NCBI RefSeq assembly: GCF_026151205.1
Contig: NC_087082.1
Coordinates: 2,136,001 to 2,200,000, forward strand
Source: Bolinopsis microptera
Lineage: Eukaryota > Ctenophora > Tentaculata > Lobata > Bolinopsidae
Direction of reading: 5' to 3'
Length of the DNA: 64,000 nucleotides
Shown here: piece by piece, positions 5,836 to 52,100 of the stretch
How positions within the stretch are numbered: the stretch's first letter is position 1
Layout of the letters: every line of letters starts with the position of its first letter
Position numbers and translations under genes: made by a program
Notes under the pieces: model-generated
Told to the model about the DNA's origin: nothing
The model's database searches: none
Seen by the model: the letters and a program-made list of their open reading frames with translations, nothing else

Positions 5836-5940
5836 TTTTACTTACTGGGCCGCGCTCAGCCTTACTGTCATTCCTGATTCCGCCGAATCTCTATTCGTTA
5901 ATGAACATGATAGCCTGAGGTCCCCAGGTAAGCGTTTTAC

Positions 5941-6040
5941 TTGATTGACGATGTCAATCCTTCACATCTCGCCGATCTGCATAAGTGGTTGCGAGAAGCA
6001 TTATTGGATGCGCGCGCGACCCAGTAGTGCATCGCGCTAC
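5941..6040 (-). mobile_element. Short hairpin-ended insertion, family 1, copy 1
   Basis: A 100-bp GC-rich insert flanked by a perfect 11-bp direct repeat AAGCGTTTTAC (5930-5940 and 6041-6051). On the minus strand it starts GTAGCGCGATGC. It ends with a 7-bp stem GATTGAC / GTCAATC around loop ATC, followed by AA. Three further copies lie at 39880, 40301 and 40604. Confidence 0.85.
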
Positions 6041-6377
6041 AAGCGTTTTACAATCTGAATTCAGCCAGAGAGTCATGACAACCACATTAATTTGCAAAGT
6101 TATAAAGCTGCGAGCTTTTAAATTCGGCCCAAAATCATACTTTTCGGGATAACTCAAAATCTTCAATATAATATCCCTAGGCCTAATTTTCCTCCTCGGG
6201 AGGAAACATTATTTTTATGAGGCGAGCATTTTGCAAAAAACTGGAAGTCTCGGCCATCTCTTTTACTTTCTGCTTTCGAAGTTGAGCCCCAGCCAGTAAG
6301 GTTTTCTGGCCGTACCCTTAAATTGGACATAACCCACCAGCTGAAGTAACTCTGATACATCGGATTAGAACCTGTTT

Positions 6378-9963: not shown

Positions 9964-10119
9964 AATACTGCTGAATACTGACATAACACTCCTACCATCA
10001 GTTTTATTTTTACAGTACGACATCCAGACAAATACAACCTGCTTTTATTCTGTTTTTTTAGTTTAAACACAACTTTACAACTTTTATTCATTCCATTGTG
10101 AATTAATAAGATTCACAAG

Positions 10120-13100
10120 ATGACAAATTTTAATAATGCAGCTGATAGGTTTCACAACCTCTGCATTGGTCATTGTAACATTCAAGGAGGGCTTCTCAAT
10201 TTAGCTAAAAGTAATGAACTTTCCCAACTTATTAGAGATCATAAATTAGACATACTTTCCCTAAATGAGATGAATCTTAATGATACTATTGACACAGACA
10301 CCATAAATATTCCTTCCTCCTTCAACCTTATGCGATGCGACAGGCCAAACAGTTCTAGGGGTGGTTGTGGCTTAATGATAAACAAAAAACTAGCTTACAC
10401 AGAATTAGTTATGGATAGTAAGCTTGATAACATTGAAGCATTATGGGTGAAGCTTAAGAATAGCAAGATCAATGTTTGCTGCTTCTATCGCTCTGGAAAT
10501 TATTGCAGTGTTGATAACTTTATTGAATACATTCATTTTTGCATGAAAAAATTGAATGGGAAAAAGGTTATCTGGATTGGGGATATAAACATTGACCAGA
10601 ATAATATCTCATCCACCCAGTACAAAAAATTAGATATGACCTTGAGATGTTACAATCTAGTTCAAACCATTCAAGGGATAACTAGAGTTGCTAAACGTGG
10701 AGACAATGTTACCCAGACTACTATTGATGTAATATTCACTAACTGTTATGCAGATTTTGTCCAATCTTCTGTTCTTGATGAACGTATTGGAGATCATCAA
10801 GCTATTATGTGTGAGATAGATTGTAAAGTACCTATAGCTCCTAAATTTGAGAAGGTTGAAATTAGAAATCATTGTAAACGTAATGTTAAACAATTCTTAG
10901 ACTATCTAGACACCTGTTCTGATTACAGTCCACTATTGGAAAGTACAGATGTTGAAGCTATCACAGCTGGCCTTTGTCATCATATTGAACAGGCATATGC
11001 AACCTTCTTCCCTTGCAAGACCATAGAAAGGCATGAAAAGTTCATACATAAACCTTCTACTGAACTTTTATATGCCATTAATCATACACATTTTCTTCTA
11101 AAGAAATTCCGTAAAAAGAAGGATAAGAGAGACAATGGAAATTGCAATAAATGTGGTACATGTAGCAAATGTATAAAGTGTAATGAGGCCTGGGATTGCT
11201 ACAAGATTCAGAGAAATATTAGAAATACATTAGCTAAAACCTGCAAAAAGGCTAATGTAATCGATGATCTACAAGTTAAAAGTGCCAAGAATGATCTTAA
11301 AGGGATATGGAAAACTATCAAACTGGCATCAAATATGACCCCTGGTACAACTAATTGTCAAACTATCAATGAGAATGATCCTGAGCTATTTAACTTTCAT
11401 TTTGCAAATGTTGGATCAAGATTACAAAATCAGGCCCCCAATATTGAAAGAGTTAGTTTTACTGATTTTTTACCTCCTAGAACTTCTAATATCTCATTTG
11501 ATAGATTCCAAGAAATAAATGAAACTGATATCCTAATGTATGTCGAAACGCTCAAGAATGACAAGGCCTCATATGACAATGTGCCTCTATTTTTACTTAA
11601 GCAAGCTGTACCACACATAGTTGAGCCACTGACCCACATTGTCAATCTGAGCCTTAATACAGGTGTTGTACCAACCCTTTGTAAAAAAGCTAGAGTAACT
11701 CCCATCCATAATTATAAGGCAGGAATGAAAGATGATCCTAATAATTACAGGCCAATATCCATCCTTCCACTTGTAGGAAAACTTATAGAATACTTTGTCG
11801 GCAAGCAACTCACTGATTACATGGAAGAGAACAAACTTTTCATCCGGCATCAATATGGCTTTCGGAAAAATCACTCCACAACTTATCTGATGTACGATCT
11901 GATGGACGAAATATATATGAGTAAATCTAAGTCTTATAAACCAGGAATCATCTTTCTTGATCTTAAGAAGGCCTTTGACACAGTGAATCATGAAATATTG
12001 CTTCAAAAATTGGCATATTATGGAATTGGTGGCATTGCTTTAACCTGGTTTAAGAACTTCTTATCTTGTAGATATCAATGCACTAGGATCAATGGCAATC
12101 TAAGCTCATTTTTAGAAGTTCTGAGTGGTGTACCACAAGGAAGCATCATTGGGCCTATATTATTTAGTATCTTCATAAATGACATCATTTATGCCTGTAA
12201 CCTATCTAAGCCCTTTCTATTTGCAGATGATGGTGCACTATTCTTTGATCAAACCTGCAGAAGCACATTTATAAACATGAAAATAGAACTTATGACAATC
12301 TTTAAATGGCTCAGTGTTAATAAATTATCACTCAATGAAAAGAAGACTGAATTCCTATTGTTTGATTCTGTTGACCAACATGATGAAATAACCATTGATT
12401 GTAATGAGGTAACTTTCACAATCAAGGAGTGCAAAGAGACAAAATATCTTGGCCTCATTCTAGATAGTAAATTAAACTTCAAAAGCCATGTAGATTATAT
12501 TATTAGGAAGGTCATGAAGAGAATTGGTGCCATGTATAGAAGTAAAGCACTGCTACCCATTAAATATAGGAAAATGTTTGCCAATGCACTCATGTTGCCA
12601 CAATTCGATTATTTAGACACGATCTATTGTAGAGCTGGCAAGACAAAACTTGCTGAACTTGACACTCTGTACAAAAAGGTAGCCAAAATAGCTCTCAACG
12701 TTCCAAAAACAGAGAGCAGCCTTAATGTTTATAGAGACATGAAATGGTTACCACTCCATCTTAGACGACAACTCCATCTGTCAAATTATATGTTTAGAAT
12801 CATCCATGACAATTGTCCTACAAACTTTATGAACAAATTTAGTTACATATCAGGAGGTAGTAGGAGCGGCGAAAGCTGCAACCTTTATGTCAATAGATCA
12901 ACATCACATAAAAACTTTCAATACTTGGGGGCAAAATGTTGGAATAATGTTCCAACAGATCTACGAAATCTGCCCGATGTTAAAAGCTTTAGTGATTCGT
13001 ATAAGAAACAGCTACTATCATCTATTACAACAGATCATCCAAGGCACGCAGCACTACGCCCTAAAACACCTACCACCCACAGAAGCAAGATCCGTAGTTC

Positions 13101-14244
13101 CTGGAGAGAGAAAACTAACTCCACCAGAGGGCAACTACCAACTCACGGAAATCCCGTAGAAGCCCTCCCATCTCCATTCCAAAAGCCCTGGGAGAATTCA
13201 GAAGAACAGAGGAAAAGGAACTGGAAAGTGTTCACAGCACTACCAGAGACTCCTATGCTAGTACCCAAATCCCATCCAGCTGTGCCTAACAACCAACACC
13301 CTTTCTCCACACGACCAAGAGACACTTTCTGGGACACAAGCGATTCAGCTAACGAAAGCTCTGCCAAAAGACTGACCGCCCAAAGTGCTATCAGAATGAT
13401 TGACAAGTACGACATATGTACTACCATCTATACTGACGGATCATGTAAAGGTGGAACAAAGGAAGGTGGAGCAGCAGCAGTTATCACCACAGGGTCAGCA
13501 GCTAACCCCGTTATACTGGAGACCATAAAAAAGAAGGGAAATAAGTTCACCTGCTCCTATGGTGAGGAGAAAACTGCACTTACGGAAGCCCTGAAATGGA
13601 TGACAGAGAACCAGAAGTATGATGACACCATCATATGCTCTGATAGCCAGGCATTACTGACTAGCATCGATAGCCTGAACCCAGACACACAGGATATCAG
13701 GAAAACTCTGGAATCACTCCATGGGACAACGTACCTGCACTGGATTCCCGGCCACTCCAACATTCCTGGGAACGAATACGCTGACAAAGCAGCAAAGGAA
13801 GCAGCACAACTCCCGGACCTGGGCCAAGGACAGTCTACAATCTCATACGGAGTTGCCAGAGCAGTAGCAAAGGCTCACATCAAGGATAGCGACCCCCAAC
13901 ACCACCTGGTCTCCCAGACTTACAAGGGATACAACAGAAAAAGAGCGGACAGTAAAATAGAGAGCAGGAAAGACGGAGCGCTGCTAGCACAACTCAGAGC
14001 AGGCCATTGCCTTCACCTGTCCCACTACAAAAATAGGATCGACTCTACAAAGAGTGCAACTTGTCCCCGTTGCGGAGAAGAAGAAGAAACGGTACCACAC
14101 TGGATTCGGTGCCCTGTAACGATCAGGACGAGAGAAGAAATCTTCGGAAAATCTGACTTAAACTTGGACATACTAACCACCAACCCGATAGAAATCCTGG
14201 CGTTTGCTAAGAAGACCTTGCTTGAGGGACCCTTAGACGCCTAG
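10120..14244 (+). CDS. LINE ORF2: AP endonuclease, reverse transcriptase, RNase H
   Basis: An uninterrupted 1374-residue polyprotein. Residues ~10-230 form an APE-type endonuclease (GHCNIQGG, LNEMN, IWIGDINID, GDHQAI). Residues ~420-800 form a reverse transcriptase with NNYRPISILP, HQYGFRKNHST, LDLKKAFDTV, SGVPQGSIIGP and FADDGA. Residues ~1100-1240 form RNase H (TIYTDGSCKGG, SDSQALL, HWIPGHSNIPGNEYAD). A C-terminal CPRCGEEEETVPHWIRCP zinc-finger-like motif follows. It nicks target DNA and primes reverse transcription of its own RNA. The frame has no breaks, so the copy is young. Base composition rises in GC from about 13030, where the RNase H part begins. Confidence 0.95.
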   Translation: MTNFNNAADRFHNLCIGHCNIQGGLLNLAKSNELSQLIRDHKLDILSLNEMNLNDTIDTDTINIPSSFNLMRCDRPNSSRGGCGLMINKKLAYTELVMDSKLDNIEALWVKLKNSKINVCCFYRSGNYCSVDNFIEYIHFCMKKLNGKKVIWIGDINIDQNNISSTQYKKLDMTLRCYNLVQTIQGITRVAKRGDNVTQTTIDVIFTNCYADFVQSSVLDERIGDHQAIMCEIDCKVPIAPKFEKVEIRNHCKRNVKQFLDYLDTCSDYSPLLESTDVEAITAGLCHHIEQAYATFFPCKTIERHEKFIHKPSTELLYAINHTHFLLKKFRKKKDKRDNGNCNKCGTCSKCIKCNEAWDCYKIQRNIRNTLAKTCKKANVIDDLQVKSAKNDLKGIWKTIKLASNMTPGTTNCQTINENDPELFNFHFANVGSRLQNQAPNIERVSFTDFLPPRTSNISFDRFQEINETDILMYVETLKNDKASYDNVPLFLLKQAVPHIVEPLTHIVNLSLNTGVVPTLCKKARVTPIHNYKAGMKDDPNNYRPISILPLVGKLIEYFVGKQLTDYMEENKLFIRHQYGFRKNHSTTYLMYDLMDEIYMSKSKSYKPGIIFLDLKKAFDTVNHEILLQKLAYYGIGGIALTWFKNFLSCRYQCTRINGNLSSFLEVLSGVPQGSIIGPILFSIFINDIIYACNLSKPFLFADDGALFFDQTCRSTFINMKIELMTIFKWLSVNKLSLNEKKTEFLLFDSVDQHDEITIDCNEVTFTIKECKETKYLGLILDSKLNFKSHVDYIIRKVMKRIGAMYRSKALLPIKYRKMFANALMLPQFDYLDTIYCRAGKTKLAELDTLYKKVAKIALNVPKTESSLNVYRDMKWLPLHLRRQLHLSNYMFRIIHDNCPTNFMNKFSYISGGSRSGESCNLYVNRSTSHKNFQYLGAKCWNNVPTDLRNLPDVKSFSDSYKKQLLSSITTDHPRHAALRPKTPTTHRSKIRSSWREKTNSTRGQLPTHGNPVEALPSPFQKPWENSEEQRKRNWKVFTALPETPMLVPKSHPAVPNNQHPFSTRPRDTFWDTSDSANESSAKRLTAQSAIRMIDKYDICTTIYTDGSCKGGTKEGGAAAVITTGSAANPVILETIKKKGNKFTCSYGEEKTALTEALKWMTENQKYDDTIICSDSQALLTSIDSLNPDTQDIRKTLESLHGTTYLHWIPGHSNIPGNEYADKAAKEAAQLPDLGQGQSTISYGVARAVAKAHIKDSDPQHHLVSQTYKGYNRKRADSKIESRKDGALLAQLRAGHCLHLSHYKNRIDSTKSATCPRCGEEEETVPHWIRCPVTIRTREEIFGKSDLNLDILTTNPIEILAFAKKTLLEGPLDA

Positions 14245-35368: not shown

Positions 35369-35991
35369 GTTTTAATAAAATGAATGTATATTTTTGAATT
35401 TTTAAGATTTAATTTGAGAATGAAGTATAAAGACATTTTTAATTAGCACTGTAGAGTTTAAGATATTTATAGCTTATTATAACCATTGATACAAAGGCCA
35501 TAATCTCTCGCCAACTCTCCAATATCCACCTTGAAGCTGCATCTTATATCCTTGAACTACACAATATAAACTAAAGCATGTTATAGTGTAGACTTTTTGT
35601 CACAACAAGACTGCAACCTATAGTAAAAACTATGAACTGAACCCCTAATGTCTGCTAACAATTTTTCTTCTAGTCCTAATGTGAGCCTTGTCTCTAAAAA
35701 CTTAAATGAACTAGCGTTTCGGTGTGTGCAAAAGCTTCCAGGCACACGCATTCCTTGCCCCGTTAATTACCTGTCCTTCCAAAACCAAACAAGCAGTCAA
35801 GGACAAAAAGTCATACACCAAATGGGCATTATATGTTATGAATTGTTTTAACATCTTTTTTTTCTGTAAAAATGTGCTAAAATTAAATTTCTTGTTTCAT
35901 TGAAATTCTTTTACGGTCCAATCAAGCAGAGCATGATTATGTTGATTAGTTAATAGCGCACGTTTTGGTTAATAACTGCATTCAGGAGGAA

Positions 35992-37233
35992 ATGTTCTAT
36001 ACGGTAATTGTTGTGATGATTCTAATAAAGTCTGGGCAATTAGAAGAGCCCCAAAACAGACACCCAAAGCACAATGAAGCTGGAGCCTCCAGATCCGGCA
36101 ATTCTAAGAACCTGACAACAAATTCGGATCACTGTTACGAGTTCTACACGGCTGACGTATCTCTCAAATTATCGTTTGGTGAGGTGATCACAAATGTCTC
36201 TGCTGAAAGTGTGACTGCTTGCAAGATGTACTGTTGGTATCACAAAACCTGCTGCTCATTTACTTTTGACTCAACAACATCAAGTTGCAGCATTCACAAC
36301 AGCTTTCCCCTTCATGATTCGTCATCTCAAGTAAATCATTCATCTTTTGATGTTCTAGGAAACATGGACTGCTTGATGAATTTTGAGGAAAGTCCTTCAG
36401 TGCCGTGCAGGACAATCAAAAGCGCAACAACAACAAATAAGGATTCAAAGGGAGTTTTGATGAAAAACATTGACAATAGACAGTGTTTAGGATTTGGAAA
36501 GTCGATGGAGTTAAACTGGAAAGGTTGTACATCAGCTATCTCATGGCTATTTGAGAAAAAAGAAAGTGGAAATGAGACCAGATTTAAAATCCTCCAAGCA
36601 GATTCTCTGAGGTATTGTGTGGAAGCACAATTTAAAAACACCAAATCAATCGCTTCTTTAACTCTCTGTCAAGAAGATAATGTGAATCAGCTCTTTGAAA
36701 TCATCAGAGGAACAATATTCCAGTTATCTAGCGTGTTAGATCCCATTGATTCAGAAAACAACAACAATTGCTTCTTCTCAATAACAAGTCTGGATAGGTA
36801 CGTCTACCCTGGGACCTCAAATATCCGCTTAAGCAACCTGAGACTTCTGTTCCCTGAAGAGCACCTTGCCTTGTGTCGAAGAAATAAGTTCAAGGTTGCT
36901 AATGGAAACGTTGAAGGTAAACTACCACTATACTTACCGGGCAGCAACATCTCAGTCAGATGCAAACCTGGGTACGGCTTCAAAGAGTTTGACTTCCGAT
37001 CTACTTTGAATATCACGTGCCAAAATGAAAAGACACATGGTTTGAAGTGTGTGGAACCCGATGCAAAGCCAGGAGAGACGATTCGGTTGAAAACGATATT
37101 GGTTTGTGGTAATTTCGGTCAAGCTGTGATTATCATGCTCTTGGTTGTCTTGGTTATTGTGTTGGTAAAAAAGATATATACATTGAAGGCTGAACACAGC
37201 TCTGATGTGGAAATGAATAAAGACCAAATATGA
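35992..37233 (+). CDS. PAN/Apple - ricin B-like - Sushi type I membrane protein, copy 1
   Basis: Intronless, 413 residues from the ATG at 35992. MFYTVIVVMILIKSG is a short signal sequence. Residues ~48-130 have the cysteine pattern of a PAN/Apple domain (CKMYCWYHKTCCSFTFDS). Residues ~150-245 look like a ricin-type trefoil (CLGFGKSMELNWKGC, LCQEDNVNQLFEI). Residues ~295-360 form a Sushi/CCP module (NGNVEGKLPLYLPGSNISVR, then C..GYGF...C). A membrane helix (VIIMLLVVLVIVLV) and a ~25-residue tail follow. A surface receptor or lectin is implied, but ligand and function are unknown. The paralogue at 45645 is very similar. A 5.15-kb insertion ends 21 bp before the ATG, so its promoter may be altered. 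Confidence 0.85.
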   Translation: MFYTVIVVMILIKSGQLEEPQNRHPKHNEAGASRSGNSKNLTTNSDHCYEFYTADVSLKLSFGEVITNVSAESVTACKMYCWYHKTCCSFTFDSTTSSCSIHNSFPLHDSSSQVNHSSFDVLGNMDCLMNFEESPSVPCRTIKSATTTNKDSKGVLMKNIDNRQCLGFGKSMELNWKGCTSAISWLFEKKESGNETRFKILQADSLRYCVEAQFKNTKSIASLTLCQEDNVNQLFEIIRGTIFQLSSVLDPIDSENNNNCFFSITSLDRYVYPGTSNIRLSNLRLLFPEEHLALCRRNKFKVANGNVEGKLPLYLPGSNISVRCKPGYGFKEFDFRSTLNITCQNEKTHGLKCVEPDAKPGETIRLKTILVCGNFGQAVIIMLLVVLVIVLVKKIYTLKAEHSSDVEMNKDQI

Positions 37234-37965: not shown

Positions 37966-40170
37966 TTATTCATACCTCCCAGTGGAGTAAAGATTTATAA
38001 AACGTTTCTTTGCTACATAAGGATGGAACCACAGATAATCATTGTGTTTTTCCTTATTACTGATATAACTGGTACCTTCAATTCTTGTTAAAACTTCTTT
38101 CGAAACATTCCAAAAATGAAAGTCATTTACAATACATTTAGAAATCATATTCTTTTTAAAACTTTCCAATCCAATTTTAAAACTCAAAACTGTCAAGCAG
38201 TTCTTCACCTCCGAAGGGAGTTTGTTCCAATAAGGAACAACCCGCTCTGGAAGAAAAGAACACTGAAGATTCTTGACCTTTGTCACACTCTTACTACATC
38301 TATTGGATGAAACCAGATTAAGACCTGATCTGCTTGGTCTGAACAAGTCTGAACCATAATCAGTCAAGCCATTAATAACCTTAAAAGCTTCAATAAGGTC
38401 CCCACGTATTCGCCGCTCTGCCAGCGTTGTCAAATTAAGGATTTCCAGTCTACGGCTGTAAGGAAGAGTACCCACCTCATCAATCAGACGGGTAAACCGC
38501 CTCTGGACGCTCTCCAGCTCCAAAACAGTCCCCCAACTTCCATGAGCCGCAACTGGATTCCACAATTGGACACAATACTCTAGATGAGGTCTTATCAAAG
38601 CTTTATAGATGGCTATCATTACACATTTTTCTCTAATTATCAAATTCCTTACAATCCAGCAAATCATACGATTTGCCTTGGAAATACATGCTTTTATCTC
38701 TTCATTCCAAAGCAGGGAACTATGGGTAATAACCCCCAAATCTTTTTCCTGATCAGATACTTCAAGTTCTACGCCATTTACTAAATAATTTAGGTTAGGG
38801 TTGCTATTAAGATTAATATGAACAACTTTACATTTAGCAGGATTAAACTTCAAAAGCCAAATACTCTCCCAGACTTCCAGTTCTACAACACTGCTGTGGT
38901 TAGCTGCATTACCAATCAACTTGAGGTCATCTGCAAATAATTCAATCTTATTCTTGACCATATCAGGTAAATCATTAATATAAAGAATATATATATAAAG
39001 AATATATAATATAAGGAATAAATAGCAAAGGACCCAATACTGACCCCTGGGGAACACCAGATAACACGTGTTTCACCTCAGACCATTGTCCTTCTACACA
39101 AACCCTCATGGTTCTGTCTGTAAGAAAATCTTGAATAACATCTAAAACTTTTCCTTTGACCCCAAACCCCTCCAATTTAGATAAAAGCCTAAAGTGGGGG
39201 ACAGTGTCAAAGGCCTTACTAAAATCAAAATACAGTAGATCAACAGGATCACCTTCATCTGAAATATCAAGAATATTATCAAATGTCTCTAAAAGATTAG
39301 ATAAGCAAGATTTGCCCTTAACAAATCCATGCTGATGCTTTGATATTCGTTCTTCTAAAAAATCCAATAAATGTGCCCTCACCAACTTTTCGTACACTTT
39401 GCACAAAATACAAGTTAAGGAAACTGGTCTATAGTTTAAGGGATCTGATTTAACACCCTTTTTAAACAATGCTACAACGGATGCTGACTTCCACACTTCA
39501 GGAAGAGATCCCGTTTCTGAACACATTTTAAATAATTTAGTGACTGCTTCTACAAAGTTGTCATCATAAGCTAACAATTTTAATAACTTTGGATGAACAC
39601 CATCCGGACCTGAACTCTTAAAATATTAAGCTTTAAAAGTTGCTTCTTAATATCAGCACTGCTAACTTGCAAATCACTAATAACATCTTTATCATAATCC
39701 AAAGTGTCATTTTTAGGAAGAGGGCCAGGTGGCTCACACACAAACACTGAGCTGAAGGCACTTGCAAGTACTTCAGCAGACTCAGCAGAACTATCTGTGC
39801 GTGTACCATCTCCTCTATCCAAGGAAACCACACTTGATTTTACTTGCCTTTTGTTACGTAAATATGAGTAAAAAGACTTGTAGCGCGATGCATTACTGTG
39901 CCGCGCCGCGCACTCAATGAGGCTTCTCACAGCGACTACTGTGCCGCGCCGAGCTGCCATGAATTGACATCGTCAATTAATAAAAAGACTTACTATTCTG
40001 CTTTAAATTAGATGTAATCTTCTTTTTATAGTTAACTTTAGCTTTAACTTCAGCCACTTCAAAAATATGTTGCTTGCTATTAACATAACTAAAATTGATT
40101 ACAGATGGATTTCTATCAAACCCAGCCCATGCTTTGTCCTTATTCTTCCTCATTCTCTTAAGTGAAGTTG
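37966..40170 (-). pseudogene. CR1-like LINE reverse transcriptase, disrupted
   Basis: On the minus strand: SGPDGVHPKLLK-type start (in two frames near 39590), LNYRPVSLTCILCKVYEKLV, HQHGFVKGKSC, FDFSKAFDTV, SGVPQGSVLGPLLF, then INDLPDMVKN and LFADDLKLIG, and a long C-terminal domain to a stop at 37966. Three lesions are visible: a 1-nt frame change near 39590-39620, an AT-rich TATATAAAG microsatellite expansion between PLLF and YINDLP (~38975-39030), and a 101-bp insertion at 39880-39980. It is 5' truncated near 40170; no endonuclease was seen. The mostly open frames suggest it died recently. Confidence 0.88.
39880..39980 (+). mobile_element. Short hairpin-ended insertion, family 1, copy 2
   Basis: A 101-bp insert flanked by a perfect 11-bp repeat TAAAAAGACTT (39869-39879, 39981-39991). 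It starts GTAGCGCGATGC and ends in stem AATTGAC / GTCAATT, loop ATC, then AA. It sits in the coding frame of the minus-strand LINE. Dropping the insert and one repeat restores the LINE frame (KSF then YSYLRNKRQ). Confidence 0.92.
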
Positions 40171-40189: not shown

Positions 40190-40470
40190 AAGACACCTCC
40201 AAAAGTATATTATATATCTATTTTCTGTGTAGTGTCCACTACTAACAGTGTCATGATCTAATTTGCTCCATATGCATCCTTCACAGCATCTTTTGTAGTT
40301 GGAGGACTTCGCCGCTTCGACGCGCCGCGCAAACTAGCATTTTTGCTTCGCATCGTTGCTCTGCTTCACCGAGCAACGATCTGGAAGGGTTGACATCGTC
40401 AGTCAACTTTTGTAGTCTCTTATATTATAAATATGTATTCATAAATCGCCAGGTTGCAGGTATAAAATTG
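40190..40470 (+). repeat. Dispersed repeat family, copy 3
   Basis: GACACCTCCAAAAGT... through CATCCTTCACAGCATCTTTT and then ATATTATAAATATG matches 44120-44248, interrupted by the 40301-40406 insert. Confidence 0.75.
40301..40406 (+). mobile_element. Short hairpin-ended insertion, family 1, copy 4, with visible empty site
   Basis: A 106-bp insert between CTTTTGTAGTT (40290-40300) and CTTTTGTAGTC (40407-40417). The related repeat at 44224-44248 has one CTTTTGTAGTT and no insert. The 3' end is TTGACATCGTCAGTCAA, whose stem pairs through two G-T wobbles. The 5' half (GGAGGACTTCGCCGC) differs from the other copies. Confidence 0.88.
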
Positions 40471-40603
40471 CTCTAACCAGAGTCCTCTCGCTTGCAGTAG
40501 CGCGCGAAACAAGCGCGTCACGCAGTACGCGTATACACATCACACATGGCTATGTGAAGGTATAAAATGAAACTTTATTTATTTGATTACTATGCGCTGG
40601 GTT

Positions 40604-40716
40604 GTAGCGCGATGCGTTACTGTGCCGCGCCGCGCACTCAATGAGGCTTCTCTCTAGATCGGCGAGATGCGCTACTGTGCCGCGCCGAGCTGAGATGAAT
40701 TGACATCGTCAATTAA
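40604..40716 (+). mobile_element. Short hairpin-ended insertion, family 1, copy 3
   Basis: A 113-bp insert flanked by TGCGCTGGGTT (40593-40603) and TGCGCTGGGCT (40717-40727). Same ends as the 39880 copy. An internal ~25-bp unit around GATGCGCTACTGTGCCGCGC is duplicated. Confidence 0.9.
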
Positions 40717-40729
40717 TGCGCTGGGCTGA

Positions 40730-43112: not shown

Positions 43113-46100
43113 CTGGGGTTGGTTGGTTTAGTGAATACTGAGCAGTGATTGGTTGCTGTAGATAAAAGATTATGATAAATTATGAATAGGTGCAAAAATT
43201 AAAAAATACAAACCATGGCAGGAACGCAAGGCTTGAATCTCCTATCAAGGGCCCGAGGCAGCACTCCGTGATCCAGTCTGAAGAATAATTAACATATAAC
43301 ATTAAAGTTGAACTAAAACCCACAAAAAGAAAACGTAGTTTCACCAACTGAGCTAGAAGTAGAACCCACAAAAATAAAATGTCGTACCTGACATGAGGCT
43401 GGTTGTTGGTGTTTTCTCTGTAGCGACGTGAACACTTGAAGAGGAGGACAACTATGATAATGAGGAGAACGAAGGAGACACTGAGGACAACGTACAAAAC
43501 CCAGCTTTGTATACCAGCTATCAGGGGGTAATTGTCAGGGGTAAATATCAGGGTTAATTATCAACTTGAACTCTGTGATTCACGCAAAAAAGCACTTTAG
43601 TAACCCCCTAAACAACAAATTACCTGACGGTGCCTGAGGTGATCCGATAGCTTCAGTACGATCAGGATGAAATTGCAGGTGACTTTGAACGATGAACAAT
43701 TCAGAAGCGCGTACTATGTCGTAATCAACTATGTAGTTGCGGATTTTAGATGCTATCTTAGAGCTCTCGTACCCAGCACCTTCTATTCCGTCTGAAAGTT
43801 TACTGAACTGAGTAGGGGCCGGGTGGGGGGGGGGGGGGGGGGGGTAGAATAGGTACGCACACTATTTTCTTCAGAAAAGCTATCTTCTCAACATCCTCCC
43901 AATATGATAAGTTTAAAGTAACTATAGCAACAAGCTGTCACGTCTCCACCTCAGCCCCCATTCCCCATATTAGTACTAAATATGAATCTATTGTATTAAG
44001 TACTAAGTATTGTAACGAATCTTTTGAACTTTTCTCCCATCTTTAAATGTTTTAAAAGCTTGGTGCTCACCGCTCACGCCAAGCTTTTGTCCCCCTAAGT
44101 ATTTAAATACTGAAAAATAAGTATATATTCAGACGACACCTCCAAAAGTCTATATTTCTTTCGTAGGGTGCCCAACTAACAATGTCATGATCTGATTTGC
44201 TGCATGTGCATCCTTCACAGCATCTTTTGTAGTTTATATTATAAATATGGGGTCGTTTACATATTACGCAATCAATATTTCAGCAATTCCCCCCTCCCCC
44301 CTCCTTAATCAACCGTAACTAAGACCCAACCTCCCCCCCCCCCCCCCCCTTTGACTTTTTCTCTGGAAATCATATTTATTTACGTTTCATGCTACCCTCC
44401 CTAATCATGATAAGCCGAAATCATTGTTATGATATCCGGCCAAGCACCTTTCAAACTACTTACTTTAGCAGCCGGTTGTAGTAGGGGGGTCAATGACATA
44501 GAATGGAGAATTCTATGCCGTTTTAGAATTAAAAAATTGTAAAAACCCAAGTTTTTACAAAATTTCGACCTAGTAAAGCAGGATGATGATTAATCAATCT
44601 ACACTCAACTGTCACGACGTCACGTTACTTTTTAAACCTTCAACAATTTTCCAGCTCGAACACAAGGGTCCCCCTGCCCCTTGTATGTTGTATACATTTT
44701 GTAAAATTTGTAAAAAAATCTGTTTTTCAAATATTTTAAATTTGGTACTACGTTTTGCTTTTCCAAGCTGAAAAAAATACAGTAAAATATTTCCGAAATT
44801 CAAAAGTCTCCGAAATTCATAAGTTTTCATGTTTTCTATCTAGATTTCGGAGTCCCCCCCTCACCCTCGATATACGATCTTGGAGTCGAGGCTCCCCTTT
44901 GTAATTCGATCTCGGAGGGCAGGTCTCCCCTATGCAATGCGAGTTTGGAAGCTGGGAGACTGCCTTTCAATGTACGCATCGAGAATGACTCGGGCCGAAA
45001 ATTTCCTGGAAACTACTTTTATCCACATAACAGTTCATCTCACCCTGATCATTAATTAGTCAAACACATTTTTCAGGACCTAGCCCTCGAGAATTTTTCC
45101 TGAAAATTAATGATTGATATCCGTCCAACCACCTTCTAAACTACTTGCTATAGTCGGATATCCGATTAATCTCTAAATTTTATCACTATCACAGTGAAAT
45201 TGAATTAAAATATTGTCAAATTGAATTTAATTGTTATTATCCTATCCCCCCCCCCCCCCCGTAATCAACCGTAAGCATTTGGAAACCCCCTCCCCCTTCG
45301 GCTGATTACGTAATATTTGAACGACCCCTATGTATCCATAAATTGCCAGGTATAAAGTGCAAGTGCGCGTTGCCATGTAGAATTGTTGTTCATGAGCATC
45401 TGAATCGGTAAATTGCTTTTTATTGCAACATAGTCTCCATTTATAACTATACTAGAAACAGAATTAGGATCACTAGTCACTACTAAACTTAGTAACCAAA
45501 CTGTCAGTCTCTGCTTGATCAGATGGTTATTGATATTAATTTAATGTCATTTAATGTATAGTAATTTAATGTTTAATTTAATTTAAATTAAAGTTTTTTG
45601 TTTAAGATTTGATATTATTACAAATACCTGCAGTTCAGGAGGGAATGTTCTATACGGTAATTGTTGTGATGATTCTAATAAAGTATGGGCAATTAGAAGA
45701 GCCCCAAAACAGACACCCAAAGCACAATGAAGCTGGAGCCTCCAGATCCGGCAATTCTAAGAACCCGACAACAAATTCGGATCACTGTTACGAGTTCTAC
45801 ACGGCTGACGTATCTCGCAAATTATCGTTTGGTGAGGTGATCACAAATGTCTGTGCTGAAAGTGTGACTGCTTGCAAGATGTACTGTTGGTATCACAAAA
45901 CCTGCTGCTCATTTACTTTTGACTCAACAACATCAAATTGCAGCATTTACGACCACTTTCCCCTTCATAATTCATCATCTCAAGGAAATCATTCATCTTT
46001 TGATGTTCAAGGAAACATTGAATGCTTGATGAATTTTGAGGAAAGTCCATCGGTGCCATGCAGGACAATCAAAAGCGCAACAACAACAAATAAGGATTCA

Positions 46101-49100
46101 AAGGGAGTTTTGATGAAGAACGTGAACAGTAGACTGTGCTTGGGGTTTGGGAAATTGATGGAGTTGAACTGGAAAGATTGCACATCAGCTATCCCATGGC
46201 TATTTGAGAAAAGACTAAATGAAAATGGGAATAAGACCAGATTTAAAATTTACCAAGCAAATTCTCTCAACAACTGTTTAGAAGCGGACGTAACACACCA
46301 TTCCAGCAGCAAAGTGGCTTCTTTAGCTCTCTGCCAAGAAGATAATGTGAATCAGCTCTTTGAAATCATCAGAGGAACAATATTCCAGTTATCTAGCGTG
46401 TTAGATCCCATTGATTCAGAAAACAACAACAATTGCTTCTTCTCGATAACAAGTCTGGATAGGTACGTCTACCCTGGGACCTCAAATATCCGCTTAAGCA
46501 ACCTGAGACTTCTGTTCCCTGAGGAGCACCTTGCCTTGTGTCGAAGAAATAAGTTCAAGGTTGCTAATGGAAACGTTGAAGGTAGACTACCACTATACTT
46601 ACCGGGCAGCAACATCTCAGTCAAATGCAAACCAGGGTACGGCTTCAAAGAGTTTTACTTCCAATCTACTTTGAATATCACGTGTCAAAATGAAAAGACA
46701 CATGGTTTGAAGTGTGTTGAACGCGATGCAAAGCCAGGAGAGGCGAGTCCGTTGAAAACGATATTGGTTTGTGGTAACGTCGGTCAAGCTGTGATTATCA
46801 TGCTCTTGCTTGTCTTGGTTATTGTGTTGGCGAAAAAGATAAGTGCATTGAAGGCTGGCCACAGCTCTGATGTGGAAATGAAAAGACAAAATATGAACAC
46901 TTAATAAAGTCCTTGCTGAACAATTAATCTATTATAGAAACGTTATAAATTTCCACCTGGAATATGGAATCTGGACATTTAGCCCCACAAACATTCTACA
47001 CACAAGAATTTAAAGAATGCTCTGAGCCCAGTGTTATGAGCTACATAGGGGGGGGTCCACGTTAAAAAAAGTTAAAAAAGTTAAACTAATTAATGTTAAA
47101 TTTCAAAATTCAGGCTTAGAAAGTTTAACTTTTTTAACATAAATTCAAATTTGGGTTGACATTGCAATGGAGTGAATATTCTAGACTAGTTTACTTTTAG
47201 GTCATGCGTTGGTATTTTTGTTCATTAGTCATTACATGTAGGAATATAGGAATGCCCATGACAAGAGTAAAACAGTCATATAACATAGGTACAACCGATA
47301 AATATTTGATACATTTGATCATTACAATAATAAATTATAATTCATAGAAATATAAACAGCTGATTCATAAATAATTTCAAAAAAACAACAGATTCCATTC
47401 ACAGTGTCAACACTGAAAATAGGGCTATGATAATCTATATCATTAAATCTAGTGTTACTAATCGTAATGAATTAATAACTGAATAAAATTCTAATGATGT
47501 TTCATAAAAGTTATCGCTTAAACAAAGAGTCACTGTGTCACGATATTATATTACAAAATTTAAAATAGTGTCTAATGATATTTCATAAAAGTTATCGCTC
47601 AAACAATGAGTCAATTTGTCACGATATTATATTACAAAGTTAAAAAGAGTCACGTCTAATGATGTTTCAATGTAAAAGTTATCGCTCAAACAATTTGTCA
47701 ATATAATAATAAATAATAATAAAATTTGGTAGCTTAAACACAAACTCTAAGCCCAGTGGATAAACCACAAAACTTATGCTCTATTGTGTGAAACAAAGAT
47801 ACTAGATCAAGATAACTATCAAGGAGTGTATGCATAGGACATAAAAAGTTTTGGAACGAAGATGACATGCTTATGAAGCGAGCTAACAGTCTAATTGCTA
47901 ATAAGTTCAAAAATATCATGACATTAGGTTGCATCCTAAACAGTTTAAGCAAATAACATAAAGTTAAATTGTCAATTAATCGCTCATGCCATAACTTTTC
48001 TTAAACAGGTGAGTTTTTAATAATGTTTTGAACAGATCAACATCAGAACAAGTCTTAATTTCAATTGGTAGTTGGTTCCAGATTTTCGGAGCAACAGTCT
48101 GAAACGCTCTTGGGTGCGATCTTGTAGATCCGACAGGTAGGTGTAAGGAGGAAGTTCTTCTGCTACTCGAACTAACAAATGTTACTAGATCACACAGATA
48201 TGCAGGAGCAACACCATTGACTGCTTTGAAAATCAGTAAACATAACTTAAACTCAATCCTTTCCTTCACCTTGAGCCAATGAAGGGATTTGAGCTTCTCG
48301 TCGACTGAGTCTCTCTTCTTTAATCCAAAAACCAGACGCCATGCTCGGTTCTGAATGTTCTGCAGCTGCGTAATTGAGGCTTGACTACAACCATAGTAAA
48401 GCGCATTGCAGTAGTCAAGCGATGAGATTACAATTGCTTGAGTCAGTGTTCCCATCTGTTTGGTTGTGAGGAATGTTTTCATCTTAGCAAGGTCTCTTAG
48501 TTTCAGAAAACACGATGTTTTAAGTTGCTTGATTTGCTCACCAAAGTTTAGTTGAGAGTCGAGACGAAATAATATATTATATTACAAAATTAAAAAACAG
48601 TGTCAATGAAGTAAAAATTTTACAGGTGTTACTGTAATAACGTAAATAAAAGAACTTGAGGTTCTAATTTGAAGTTATATCATTTAACCTGAACATAAAA
48701 GTCTATCATTAAAATAATTTTCACTATAGTGCAGCCGAGTCCTTATCGTCGTTCATATATTTTAGAACTTCACTTGTAATACGATTAACATCATACGGTT
48801 GAGGAATCTTCATTATATCACGACATACATCATTATTCAGTAATGAAAATATATGTTCCTCAATAATCTCTTCCTCGGACATTCCTGATGTCCCAAGACT
48901 AGGGAGGCTACCTCTTATGGCCAAACAACTGGCTAAAAAAAGCACAAATCCTTCAGTACTGATCCTGAGATCGCTGAACTGTCACTTGAACGCAAGCAGC
49001 TGATGATTGCGAATATGCAGAACAAATTCCCGACCAACAGGAAGCATGTCAAGACCAACATCAACCAGCTGAGACGTAAGATTACAAAGAGACTCAGAGA

Positions 49101-52100
49101 TTTCAACAACCGCAGTGCTGACACACTCGTCGAAGAGGTAAACAACACAGACGACGCCCGGAGATACTTTGGAGCCTCTAAGATACTCGCCAAAGGATAT
49201 GTTAGACCAGCTCTAACCGTCCACAACCCTGCTGGGAATATCGCAGGTACTAATGAGGAGAAAGCGAGGATTATTAAGGAGTACTTTGAAGCTGAGTTCA
49301 ACGACGCTGATGAGCCTACCCTTCCTGCCTTCCTTGACCCCCCATCTAGCCTTAACAGTCCCATCACCGTTGCAGAGATAGAGAGAGCCATCAGTAAACT
49401 CAAGTCTGGTAAAGCAGTGGGTATTGATAAAGTTCCTGGCGAGGTCATGAAAGCCCTGAACAACCCTCTCCTTCATGAAGAGCTGGCTAATGTGTTCAAC
49501 GAGTCTTTCAAGAAAAACATTCACATTGAAGCAATAGGAGCAGGCATCCTCACACCACTGGCTAAGCCTGGTAAAACTCGTGGCCCAATTAAGTCGATAC
49601 GACCATTGCAATTGACCCTGCTGAATGTTTCTAGAAAGATCCTGTCACTGATAGTGCTAAACAGAATAGAGAGAGCTGTGGACAACTTCACCGGACCGTT
49701 CCAAGCTGCCTACAAAGCTGGCAGGAGCTGTGCCGACCTAGTTTGGGCACAGAGCATGCTCATATCTGTAGTAATGAAGAAGGAGTTTGAATGGAACAAA
49801 GTGAGTATCGACATGTCAGCTGCCTTCAATACCATCCGCAGAGGTACAACAATCAGACTACTAGAAGCTGCAGGATGCTCCAGAGACGACCTGAGGCTTG
49901 TACAATACCTCATGGCTAACACCACTCTAGTAGTCAGAGTGTGTTCTACTGACTCAGAGATGTTCTCTTTCAACATAGGAGCCTCCCAAGGAGACAGCAC
50001 AGCTGGTAAATTGTTTACCCTCAATCTAGCTGGAGCTGTAGTGTACATAAGAGCAGTCCTCCCCTCAAGACCCAACCCTCCGATAGCCGATAACCACATG
50101 CCTCTTGAGTCCGGCTATTCAGACGATTTAGAGGAGATTGGTGAAGATATGGAGGAGTTACAGGATATCTTTCAGATCTCCAATAATATTCTCAGTGAAT
50201 GGAGTCTCTTTGTCAATGACACAAAGACAAAGTTTACCAGAGTGTATTTAGAAGAAGTTGGTGCCTGTGACGAGTGGGATAATAGGATAATGAACTAAGA
50301 GGAAAAGAGGAGTGGAGAAACGAGACGCTTCTTGGTACTAAGCTTGGATCAGAGCAGGATGTTACTAATAGAATAAATAAAGCTAACTCTGCCTTCTGGT
50401 CATTTGACAAGCTGTGGTGCCAGGGATCAGAGAGGAGTCAGATAACTGAGAAGAGAAAGATCAAACTCTACGACTCACTAGTAGTATCAGTGCTCCTGTA
50501 CAACTGCTGCTGCTGGGCCGTACCTCAGCATGTTCTAGAGTCTGTAGATGTTCTTCAGAGGAAGCACCTCAAGCGCATCCTACACATATATTGGCCTAGC
50601 TCAATATCTAACAAGGCCCTCTACGCTCGTACCCAGACCAGGCCCCTTTCCGAGAGAGTGGAAAAGGCACGGTGGACAATGCTAGGTCATGTTCTACGCA
50701 GTGACAACGACACACCTGCCTACCAGTCTCTGTTATTTGCTACACTAGGATGTCAAACACTAAAGGGACGAGTGGGTAGACACAGGACTAACTTGTATGA
50801 TATTATTGTGAAAAAGGACCTATTTAAGAGACAAATTTATTTAAAAAATGAAGATGATTTTACCAACTTAGTGAACTTAGCAAGAGATAGAGTAGGATGG
50901 AGGAGTTTATTTACTTTGAGACATATTGAACGAATGAGTCTTCGTAAGCGTAAATAGGCCAGCACTTTGCTGAGTCTCTTTAGGTGCTCTTTTGTTTATA
51001 GATGTTATTATATTATATAACTGGCTAAATGGCTCTTTAGATTATGAGAGCATCTATGTTTTGAAACAGAACTTCGATCTGGTTGTTTCACTTTCACACA
51101 CCCCAATAGGTTCTTTACCTGCTTTAAGACTTCAGGGACTTCATTTTCAATATCTTCCGCGCTATCAATTACATTTAGATATTTCTTTGAATCCTGATTA
51201 TTTTTTATTTCATTCAACGATCTATGCACAAGTTCCTCATCGTCACAACTTTTCAAATTGCTTGGACCTAGTGATCTAGTTAACTCTAGCATTACCGCAA
51301 TGTGGGAAATAAAGGCAAAAGAATACTTCCCTGTCTCATTTGCATGGACATAATTAGTAGACAGCTTTCCTTGTATTTTTGGAATAGATTGAATAGTTTC
51401 CGATGACAAGATTGGTTTCACTCTAGCTATTGGGCATGGCTGATGCACAGTATTCTGCACCACATCATCTGTACTCTTTGTTCCATTCTGACATTCCGGG
51501 GTAGGTAAAATACTCATCATCCGACGACGTCTTTTCTTAGATTTTAGTCTTAATACCCGCTCCATGGATCGCACAATTGATAACGTAGGACACCTGGATT
51601 TTTTTCCTCCGAAAATATTGTATATATTCTGTAGGCAAGCTTCCTCTAAAAAACACCCAAGTCTGAATAAAACCCGTTGAATTGCTTTGGCCTTGATAAT
51701 CTGGCCAGGAACCATGTCGTTACACTTCCACAATTCAATTTCAAAATTCGTCCTGACCGTGCATCTATCTTTAATCGTAATTTCGGCATCGAGCGCCTTT
51801 CTTCCGGATTTCTCCTTACAAAGTTTGTTTTTCGGCGTGGAAGTGCCATCTTCTGTGGCGAATCTTGTAGATGGTTGGTTTAAAACAGTCTCTTTCTTCG
51901 CAATCACAGGCTTATCACCTTTTCCATCGTGTACTGGCAGTCTAATTGTACTCAGAGAACTTGTTGGAGGAGTATTTCTAGAGTTCAATTTGTCCCGATT
52001 TCCCTGCTGATTCTCATTCTTGATTGCAGTTCCACCTTCAATGAGTCGTGTAGACAACTTGTTAAGTGCTGTTTCCTTCTTTGAATTTAACACTTTCTTG

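Follow-up and report, generated by a model that had tools for sequence, protein, structure and literature searches.

Inserts in the window

The window, a stretch of 64,000 nucleotides of the ctenophore Bolinopsis microptera, lies on contig C11 of the assembly that was searched (264.65 Mb, 232 contigs). It holds four inserts bounded by direct repeats, W1 on the forward strand and W2, W3 and W4 on the reverse strand (Table 1), and a TTGACATCGTCA / TGACGATGTCAA motif is found at one end of all four. The original prediction, made from the letters of the window, had described four flanked copies of one family, with 11-bp duplications and with neither poly-A nor terminal inverted repeats. The inserts and their direct repeats are present, and the inserts bear no tail, but their ends are corrected here to TT...AA and the coordinates shifted accordingly. 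The hairpin end is likewise common to all four, but W3 differs at its other end and is a relative, not a member of the same family.

The left-arm boundary of W1 is placed by comparison with the long elements of types A and B described below; no long element with CATAAG was found. In W2 the join of the two arms lies near 39936/39937, with a right arm that begins exactly at GTCGCTGTGAG; in W4 it lies near 40652-40655 and reads GATCTA-GA-GAGAAGCC.

Elsewhere in the window, a 1,380-aa open frame (10102-14244) resembles, by eye, a reverse transcriptase of the LINE kind that ends in an RNase H-like tail, and another frame (48937-50298) contains RVT_1, a reverse transcriptase domain. Some 10 kb separate two long frames that resemble each other (35950-37233 and 45606-46904) and look by eye like gene duplicates; the former has a PAN_1 match just under the cut-off.

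Table 1. Positions of the four inserts, their parts and their target duplications in the window
Feature	Position	Strand	Remarks
Left target duplication of W1, 9 bp	5932..5940	.	gcgttttac
W1, short copy, 102 bp	5941..6042	+	
W1 left arm	5941..5985	+	ends ...GATCTGCATAAG; boundary set from A and B long elements
W1 terminal hairpin	5941..5959	+	TT-GATTGAC-GAT-GTCAATC; fold
W1 right arm	5986..6042	+	begins TGGTTG, 2 bases short of TGTGGTTG
Right target duplication of W1, 9 bp	6043..6051	.	
W2 target duplication, 9 bp	39869..39877	.	taaaaagac
W2, short copy, second subfamily, 103 bp	39878..39980	-	
Other W2 target duplication, 9 bp	39981..39989	.	
W3 target duplication, 9 bp	40290..40298	.	cttttgtag
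W3, related element	40299..40406	-	hairpin end shared; other end different (TTGGAGGACTTCG)
Other W3 target duplication, 9 bp	40407..40415	.	
W4 target duplication, 9 bp	40593..40601	.	tgcgctggg
W4, short copy, second subfamily, 115 bp	40602..40716	-	
Other W4 target duplication, 9 bp	40717..40725	.	

Target duplications and target sites

With the element ends at TT...AA, all four duplications in the window are perfect at 9 bp. Among 94 short copies from the genome (97 parsed, minus three with duplicated flanks, and still including the shared-flank pair W1/L001 and the misparse L005, offset 41), 71 are exact at 9 bp, four at 8 bp and none at any greater length, and when right flanks were dealt to other copies as a shuffled control exact 9-bp matches averaged 0.75. 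Tabulation over genome copies thus replaces the predicted 11 bp by a peak at 9 bp with no exact case above it. The longer reading arose because the element's TT/AA ends are often matched by letters next to the duplication: with no ends assumed, the 70 exact sites read as 9 (37 sites), 10 (15), 11 (9) or 12-14 (9).

A spread of duplication lengths of the LINE/SINE kind was looked for, and a fixed 9 bp was found instead. The prediction that the inserts are the product of a mobile element with a fixed duplication, to which the ordinary LINE and SINE classes are a poor fit, is borne out by the 9-bp length and by the missing tail; SINEs and LINEs are rejected on the same two grounds, and Helitrons because they make no target duplication. 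Short, non-coding and flanked by a duplication of fixed length, the copies do resemble MITEs.

Position -12 is T or C in 64 of the 70 exact sites (mirror A or G in 52) and position -13 is G or T in 53 (mirror A or C in 51), while position -11 is A in 43, with the mirror T in only 25. The preference (K-Y...R-M) is largely, not wholly, two-fold symmetric about the 9-mer.

By rule, 12 of the 94 short copies have intact arms but unlike flanks. Inspection by eye removes L005 as a misparse and L007 and L115 as shifted duplications, leaving about nine. A further locus, L074 (C1:18249550-18249970), is a hybrid in which a left arm of the W2/W4 subfamily is joined to a right arm of the main family, and it has no target duplication.

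Element ends

Read from outside, both ends have the form TT, 7-nt stem, GAT loop, 7-nt stem (TTGATTGACGATGTCAATC; TTGTAGCGCGATGCACTAC), the right-end hairpin TTGTAGCGCGATGCACTAC, which occupies the outer 19 nt, having one mismatch or wobble when paired by eye and not appearing in the computed fold. The exactly matching termini amount to 3 bp (TTG/CAA), and the likeness beyond them consists of CGATG and the hairpin symmetry. The ends are not wholly unlike, as the absence of terminal inverted repeats in the prediction would have had it, but have TTG, CGATG and the GAT-loop stems in common, which may be read as a degenerate inverted repeat.

Compensated changes in the left stem had been taken as a sign of selected structure. 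The palindromic end is real: in 12 hand-picked variants 90.5% of cells pair, whereas sliding the partner along leaves at most 37% paired. Shuffles paired as well in 46 of 500 cases, and covariation is weak, with a double-sided change in one of the seven stem pairs, a result reached by 265 of 500 shuffles, and a covariation score reached in 23 of 500. All seven pairs form in W1 and in the second subfamily, but the A and B subfamilies, long copies included, have one pair broken; five of the 12 variants, the commonest among them, break one pair. Since the case rests on one double change, the selected stem was dropped as a main point; the end is palindromic, and there is no strong case for selected base pairing.

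Copy number and subfamilies

A BLAST search with the whole W1 element gave 1,793 first-look candidates, the best 40 of which were scored. The exact core pattern of the main family has 618 matches in the genome, including some double parses, since two of 100 inspected rows are second parses of one place. The exact left-end and right-end patterns have 474 and 575 matches, the pattern of the second subfamily (W2/W4) 179 and the left-junction pattern of the long elements 59; the reversed forms of these five patterns gave no match. Main-family left arms end in ...TCTCGCCGATCTGCATACG (A), ...GATCTACCGAAG (B) or ...GATCTGCTTAAG/GCATAAG (C and W1), and right arms start with TGTGGTTGCGAGAAGC. The exact core of the W3 relative occurs at 12 places: six share a layout, and the other six vary in length in mid-element.

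Long elements and the inner boundary

Neither the parent elements of 8-14 kb nor the hypervariable join in the middle of the short copies had been seen in the prediction. Contig C1 bears at least 64 exact left ends and at least 71 exact right ends among the matches listed, from which 17 left and 20 right ends with no close exact partner were fetched; three of the former and three of the latter enter a common interior exactly at the join. The left end of this interior has 85 first-look candidates and the right end 54, the best 40 of each being scored. All of the best 40 of 54 right ends are 100% identical, and every one of 15 left ends fetched from the best 40 of 85 adjoins an arm.

One B copy, read whole, measures 7,984 bp and its arms 68 and 59 bp; an A copy measures 13,695 bp and its arms 45 and 61 bp. 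All 59 long left junctions are of one of two kinds, each with exactly 7 nt from GATCT to the interior, under a pattern that allowed 4-10 nt. The motif AWWMCAACA stands at offset 10-18 from the boundary at each of the four interior ends compared, two in an A element and two in a B element. As this offset is constant while the arm lengths differ, the boundary seems to be placed by the inner motif and not by distance from the outer end. Target duplications flank the long elements too: they are exact at 9 bp in the long copies L084/L085 and L086/L087 and 8 bp long in L081 and the A copy, and in L088 the flanks agree over the 7 bp available on the left. Subfamilies C (CTTAAG) and D (W2/W4) are represented by scars, with no long parent found by the left-junction pattern.

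Longer B copies of 16.8 and 19.1 kb hold extra inserts, with Pfam matches to HTH_psq and DDE_1 in the former and to RVT_1 in the latter. The 8.8-kb extra stretch of one B copy (L086/L087), with the HTH_psq and DDE_1 matches, was considered as the family transposase and rejected, being missing from the other B copies compared. It has inverted repeats at both ends (88% over 26 bp) and lies at a TA; these features, with its absence from other B copies, give it the look of a nested insert, likely a pogo-type element. Ten frames of the long elements yielded no Pfam match to a family transposase, the P/THAP type included, in a search that short or spliced exons escape. The genome has 88 matches to PF10551 (MULE transposase); eight of them, read as 7.5-kb loci, showed no family ends, and a MULE parent was rejected for these eight.

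Several further features of the long elements may be recorded. L090 and L099 have small duplications at the left inner boundary, with the interior kept, as if breaks there were sometimes resealed. Two B long elements, L088 and L081, contain an internal tandem duplication of ~1.25 kb, 99% identical, and a 537-aa frame (L087:1011-2621, reverse strand) matches a 2OG-Fe(II) oxygenase and, weakly, a GDSL lipase. Hairpins of unrelated sequence adjoin the right inner motif in A (L154:3693-3743) and B (L088:80-130), with folding energies of -10.7 and -7.9 kcal/mol that none and four of 200 shuffles equalled. These inner hairpins perhaps conserve structure rather than sequence, and they are a better candidate for a structure than the terminal stem.

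Joins in the short copies

Comparison with the long elements shows the short copies to be the fixed left arm and the right arm of a long element, joined at the fixed inner boundary. Trimming and filler at the join vary, the filler being mostly 0-13 nt and reaching 18 and 22 nt in two distinct joins. For the main family, 64 distinct join strings occur in 98 listed rows (the first ~100 of the 618 matches, minus two second parses), and removal of point changes in the arms leaves 63 joins, 54 of them seen once. For the second subfamily, around GATCTAGCCAG-...-GTCGCTGTGAG, the first 100 of the 179 matches contain 69 distinct strings, which reduce in the same way to 48 joins, 30 of them seen once. 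The patterns, which contain TCTCGCC and GCGAGAAG, limit the visible trimming to 12 and 7 bases.

The joins respect the inner boundary. On the left, 83 of the 98 main-family rows end at or short of it (three of these being of the CTTAAG/CATAAG types, for which no long element was found) and 15 match one further base, G; no row has more than one interior base when compared with the A and B interiors. The extra G also occurs in the right arm, and a one-base match is expected by chance. On the right, 16 of the 98 rows match 1-4 interior letters, 13 of them just one, which is not far from one-letter chance, and none matches more than four. None of the 100 listed rows of the second subfamily passes recognisably beyond either inferred boundary. 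Joins with gaps of 35-65 nt are rare (25 matches at 23 places, against 618), and ten of them are one insertion carried by a repeat; by eye the gaps contain no interior sequence, and have iterated pieces of the arms instead.

Two refinements did not hold. Short fillers copied from a template were sought in 13 cases, where the mean longest match was 4.5 against 4.0 in shuffled sequence, which is not significant. Of 49 insert-free rows, 36 show 1-2 bases of microhomology, where random trims should give 38%; an excess was nevertheless rejected, since the 18 distinct joins do not exceed expectation. Joins so numerous and so different are what end joining would give.

Probable independent origin of most short copies

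Complex joins occur at more than one fetched locus in three cases, each with shared flanks: the ACCGAAGGTAGAGAAGCGTTGG join is at ten listed loci, eight of which share both flanks and two the right flank only, and L111/L112 and L143/L144 each share one complex join together with their flanks. The shared-flank pairs W1/L001, L019/L020 and L121/L122 have the same simple join in both members. All these are single insertions that were copied within larger repeats. Every shared-flank set examined carries one and the same join, and in none was the long form found in one copy of the repeat and a scar in another. L075 and L134-L142 represent one scar inside a larger repeat at ten listed loci, and two of these repeat copies, L136 and L140, gained further short duplications of the arms. 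Among the matches listed, C2:15665949 and C2:15671644 also carry a common join.

Simple joins recur more widely. The commonest in the main family accounts for nine of 98 listed rows, and the commonest in the second subfamily, GATCTAGC-TGTGAG, for 11 of 100; the latter was found at six fetched loci with differing flanks and nearly one arm haplotype. The join GATTTG-TGG, with an odd base, is at four loci (L114-L117) with different flanks and four arm haplotypes, CATACG-TGG sits on three right-arm alleles, and GATCT-GGTTGC is found on both A and B left arms. For the last two joins, the different arm haplotypes imply repeated origin; GATCTAGC-TGTGAG and GATTTG-TGG may have recurred or bred. As 39 fetched loci were picked by likeness to W1 and another set for matching joins, join frequencies among fetched loci are not those of a random sample. 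Most short copies seem to have been made anew, with independent joins; some simple short forms, few in number, may breed.

Proposed mechanism and its alternatives

The family is one of end-joined transposon arms, most likely excision scars. The specific proposal, which we hold to have about an even chance of being right, is that the short copies are the excision scars of a transposon with a very long staggered cut. Of the two strands, one would be cut by the transposase at the outer terminus (TTG.../...CAA); the cut in its partner would fall 45-68 nt further in, at the inner boundary, which lies 9 nt outside the inverted AWWMCAACA. The element would leave carrying one strand of each arm, the other strand being rebuilt at the new site, and insertion there would make the 9-bp duplication. 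The donor would keep the complementary strand of each arm, fill in, trim a few bases and join the arms, so that a scar of ~100 bp would remain between the original duplication. Through the stagger between outer end and inner boundary, the leaving element and the donor would both keep arms, and the scar, having no inner motif, would not move again. The sharp inner boundary, the constant offset of the inner motif, the arm-flanked interior ends and the shared flanks of the complex joins speak for this proposal, and the P element is a precedent. The copies with unlike flanks and the hybrid L074 support joining at the donor site; occasional joining of one broken site to another would produce both. 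Two recurrent simple joins, GATCTAGC-TGTGAG at its six loci and GATTTG-TGG at its four, count against scars in that they also fit a breeding short form. To our knowledge, a stagger of 45-68 nt far exceeds any known. Also against the proposal are the absence of a family transposase from the ten frames scanned, the single join carried by every shared-flank set examined, the lack of a long parent for subfamilies C and D under the left-junction pattern, and joins that show neither clearly templated fillers nor excess microhomology.

The best surviving alternative, which we regard as unlikely, is abortive gap repair at the donor, a usual proposal for the origin of MITEs: after a cut at the outer ends the arms would be copied from the sister or homologue, synthesis would be blocked just outside the inner motif, and the products would be joined. 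Scars at the donor with the original duplication and varied joins follow from this account as well, and the fixed 9-nt distance to the inner motif could reflect a bound protein that blocks synthesis. Exact stops on both sides are required, however, and more than one interior base on the left was found in none of the 98 listed rows. Part-copied arms should also be common, and the 17 partnerless left arms of C1 gave two candidates, L047, which has no right arm, and L046, which has only the first dozen bases of one.

It is more doubtful still that the short form arose before or during transposition, the interior being lost and the protected arms joined in the transposase complex, and was inserted afterwards as an element of ~100 bp. 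Such an origin would explain why both outer ends are complete, as well as the 9-bp duplication and the varied joins, but the extra cut-and-join step inside the complex has to be supposed, and the roughly one in ten intact-arm copies with unlike flanks, together with L074, are not the direct product of insertion by a transposase. Unlike flanks could also come from later recombination.

An ordinary MITE family, spread from a small number of short masters whose middle is mutable, is disfavoured and quite improbable. High copy number, short size and target duplications are as such a family would have them, and the commonest joins do recur, that of the second subfamily at six loci with different flanks. 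Descent from one or a few short masters is nevertheless not what the joins record, given 63 in 98 and 48 in 100 listed rows after arm point changes were removed, complex joins that had shared flanks wherever they occupied several loci, and some joins that sit on different arm haplotypes. Finally, that the interior is a separate transposon nested in a short element, hopping out to leave footprints, would account for its own inverted motif and sharp ends, but can be rejected as barely credible, since all 15 fetched interior left ends (from the best 40 of 85) are arm-flanked, the inner boundary has no flank duplication (CATACG or ACCGAAG against TGTGG) and no single uninterrupted middle dominates.

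Relation to known systems

The excision-scar reading finds its nearest parallel in the P superfamily. The cut that P transposase makes in the 5' strand lies 17 bp within the element, and 3' extensions of 17 nt are left (PMC7776569, PMC10983969). The former account further describes internal binding sites unequally distant from the two ends, inner inverted repeats, and donor breaks that undergo end joining or homologous repair (PMC7776569). On the excision-scar reading, a long stagger with the non-transferred strand cut inside (17 nt in the P element) would be a point of likeness to the P superfamily and THAP9. The differences are that the arms left behind would measure 45-68 bp in this family, with scars by the hundred; that the P superfamily duplication is 8 bp, whereas the peak here is at 9, with four of 94 short copies at 8; and that the ten long-element frames scanned gave no transposase of the P/THAP type.

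MULEs combine a 9-bp duplication with long elements, borrowed-looking interiors between conserved arms, and internal deletions. The duplication, the interiors and the conserved arms are MULE-like here, but MULEs have long inverted repeats in place of the 3-bp exact termini. MITEs that arise by internal deletion are alike in shortness, abundance, the possession of the ends of a longer element and a fixed duplication. Known MITE families, however, amplify from one or a few short forms; in this family the arms seem to have been joined anew, at a single exact boundary, for most loci. The footprints of Tc1/mariner and Stowaway elements measure 2-3 bases, whereas those here would be of ~100. Excision of both kinds leaves short sequences from the element ends (PMC4561436). 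Among the titles and abstracts searched, no description was found of MITE-like repeats as independently joined excision scars, and the family of end-joined arms is new in degree, perhaps in mechanism.

Implications

Where MITE-like repeats abound, the usual view is of selfish elements that copy themselves; in this animal genome the short form seems to be newly made at most sites, ends being joined at one exact boundary. The wider reading of these data, which falls somewhat short of an even chance, is that a DNA transposon divides its ends between donor and target, so that each jump would leave a scar barcoded by its join and the apparent MITE would never have been mobile. If this is true, the stagger of the transposase is much longer than that of the P element. 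Each scar, barcoded by its join, would then record a single jump along with the end-joining habits of the host, and the hundreds of scars in this genome would form a readable log of past transpositions.
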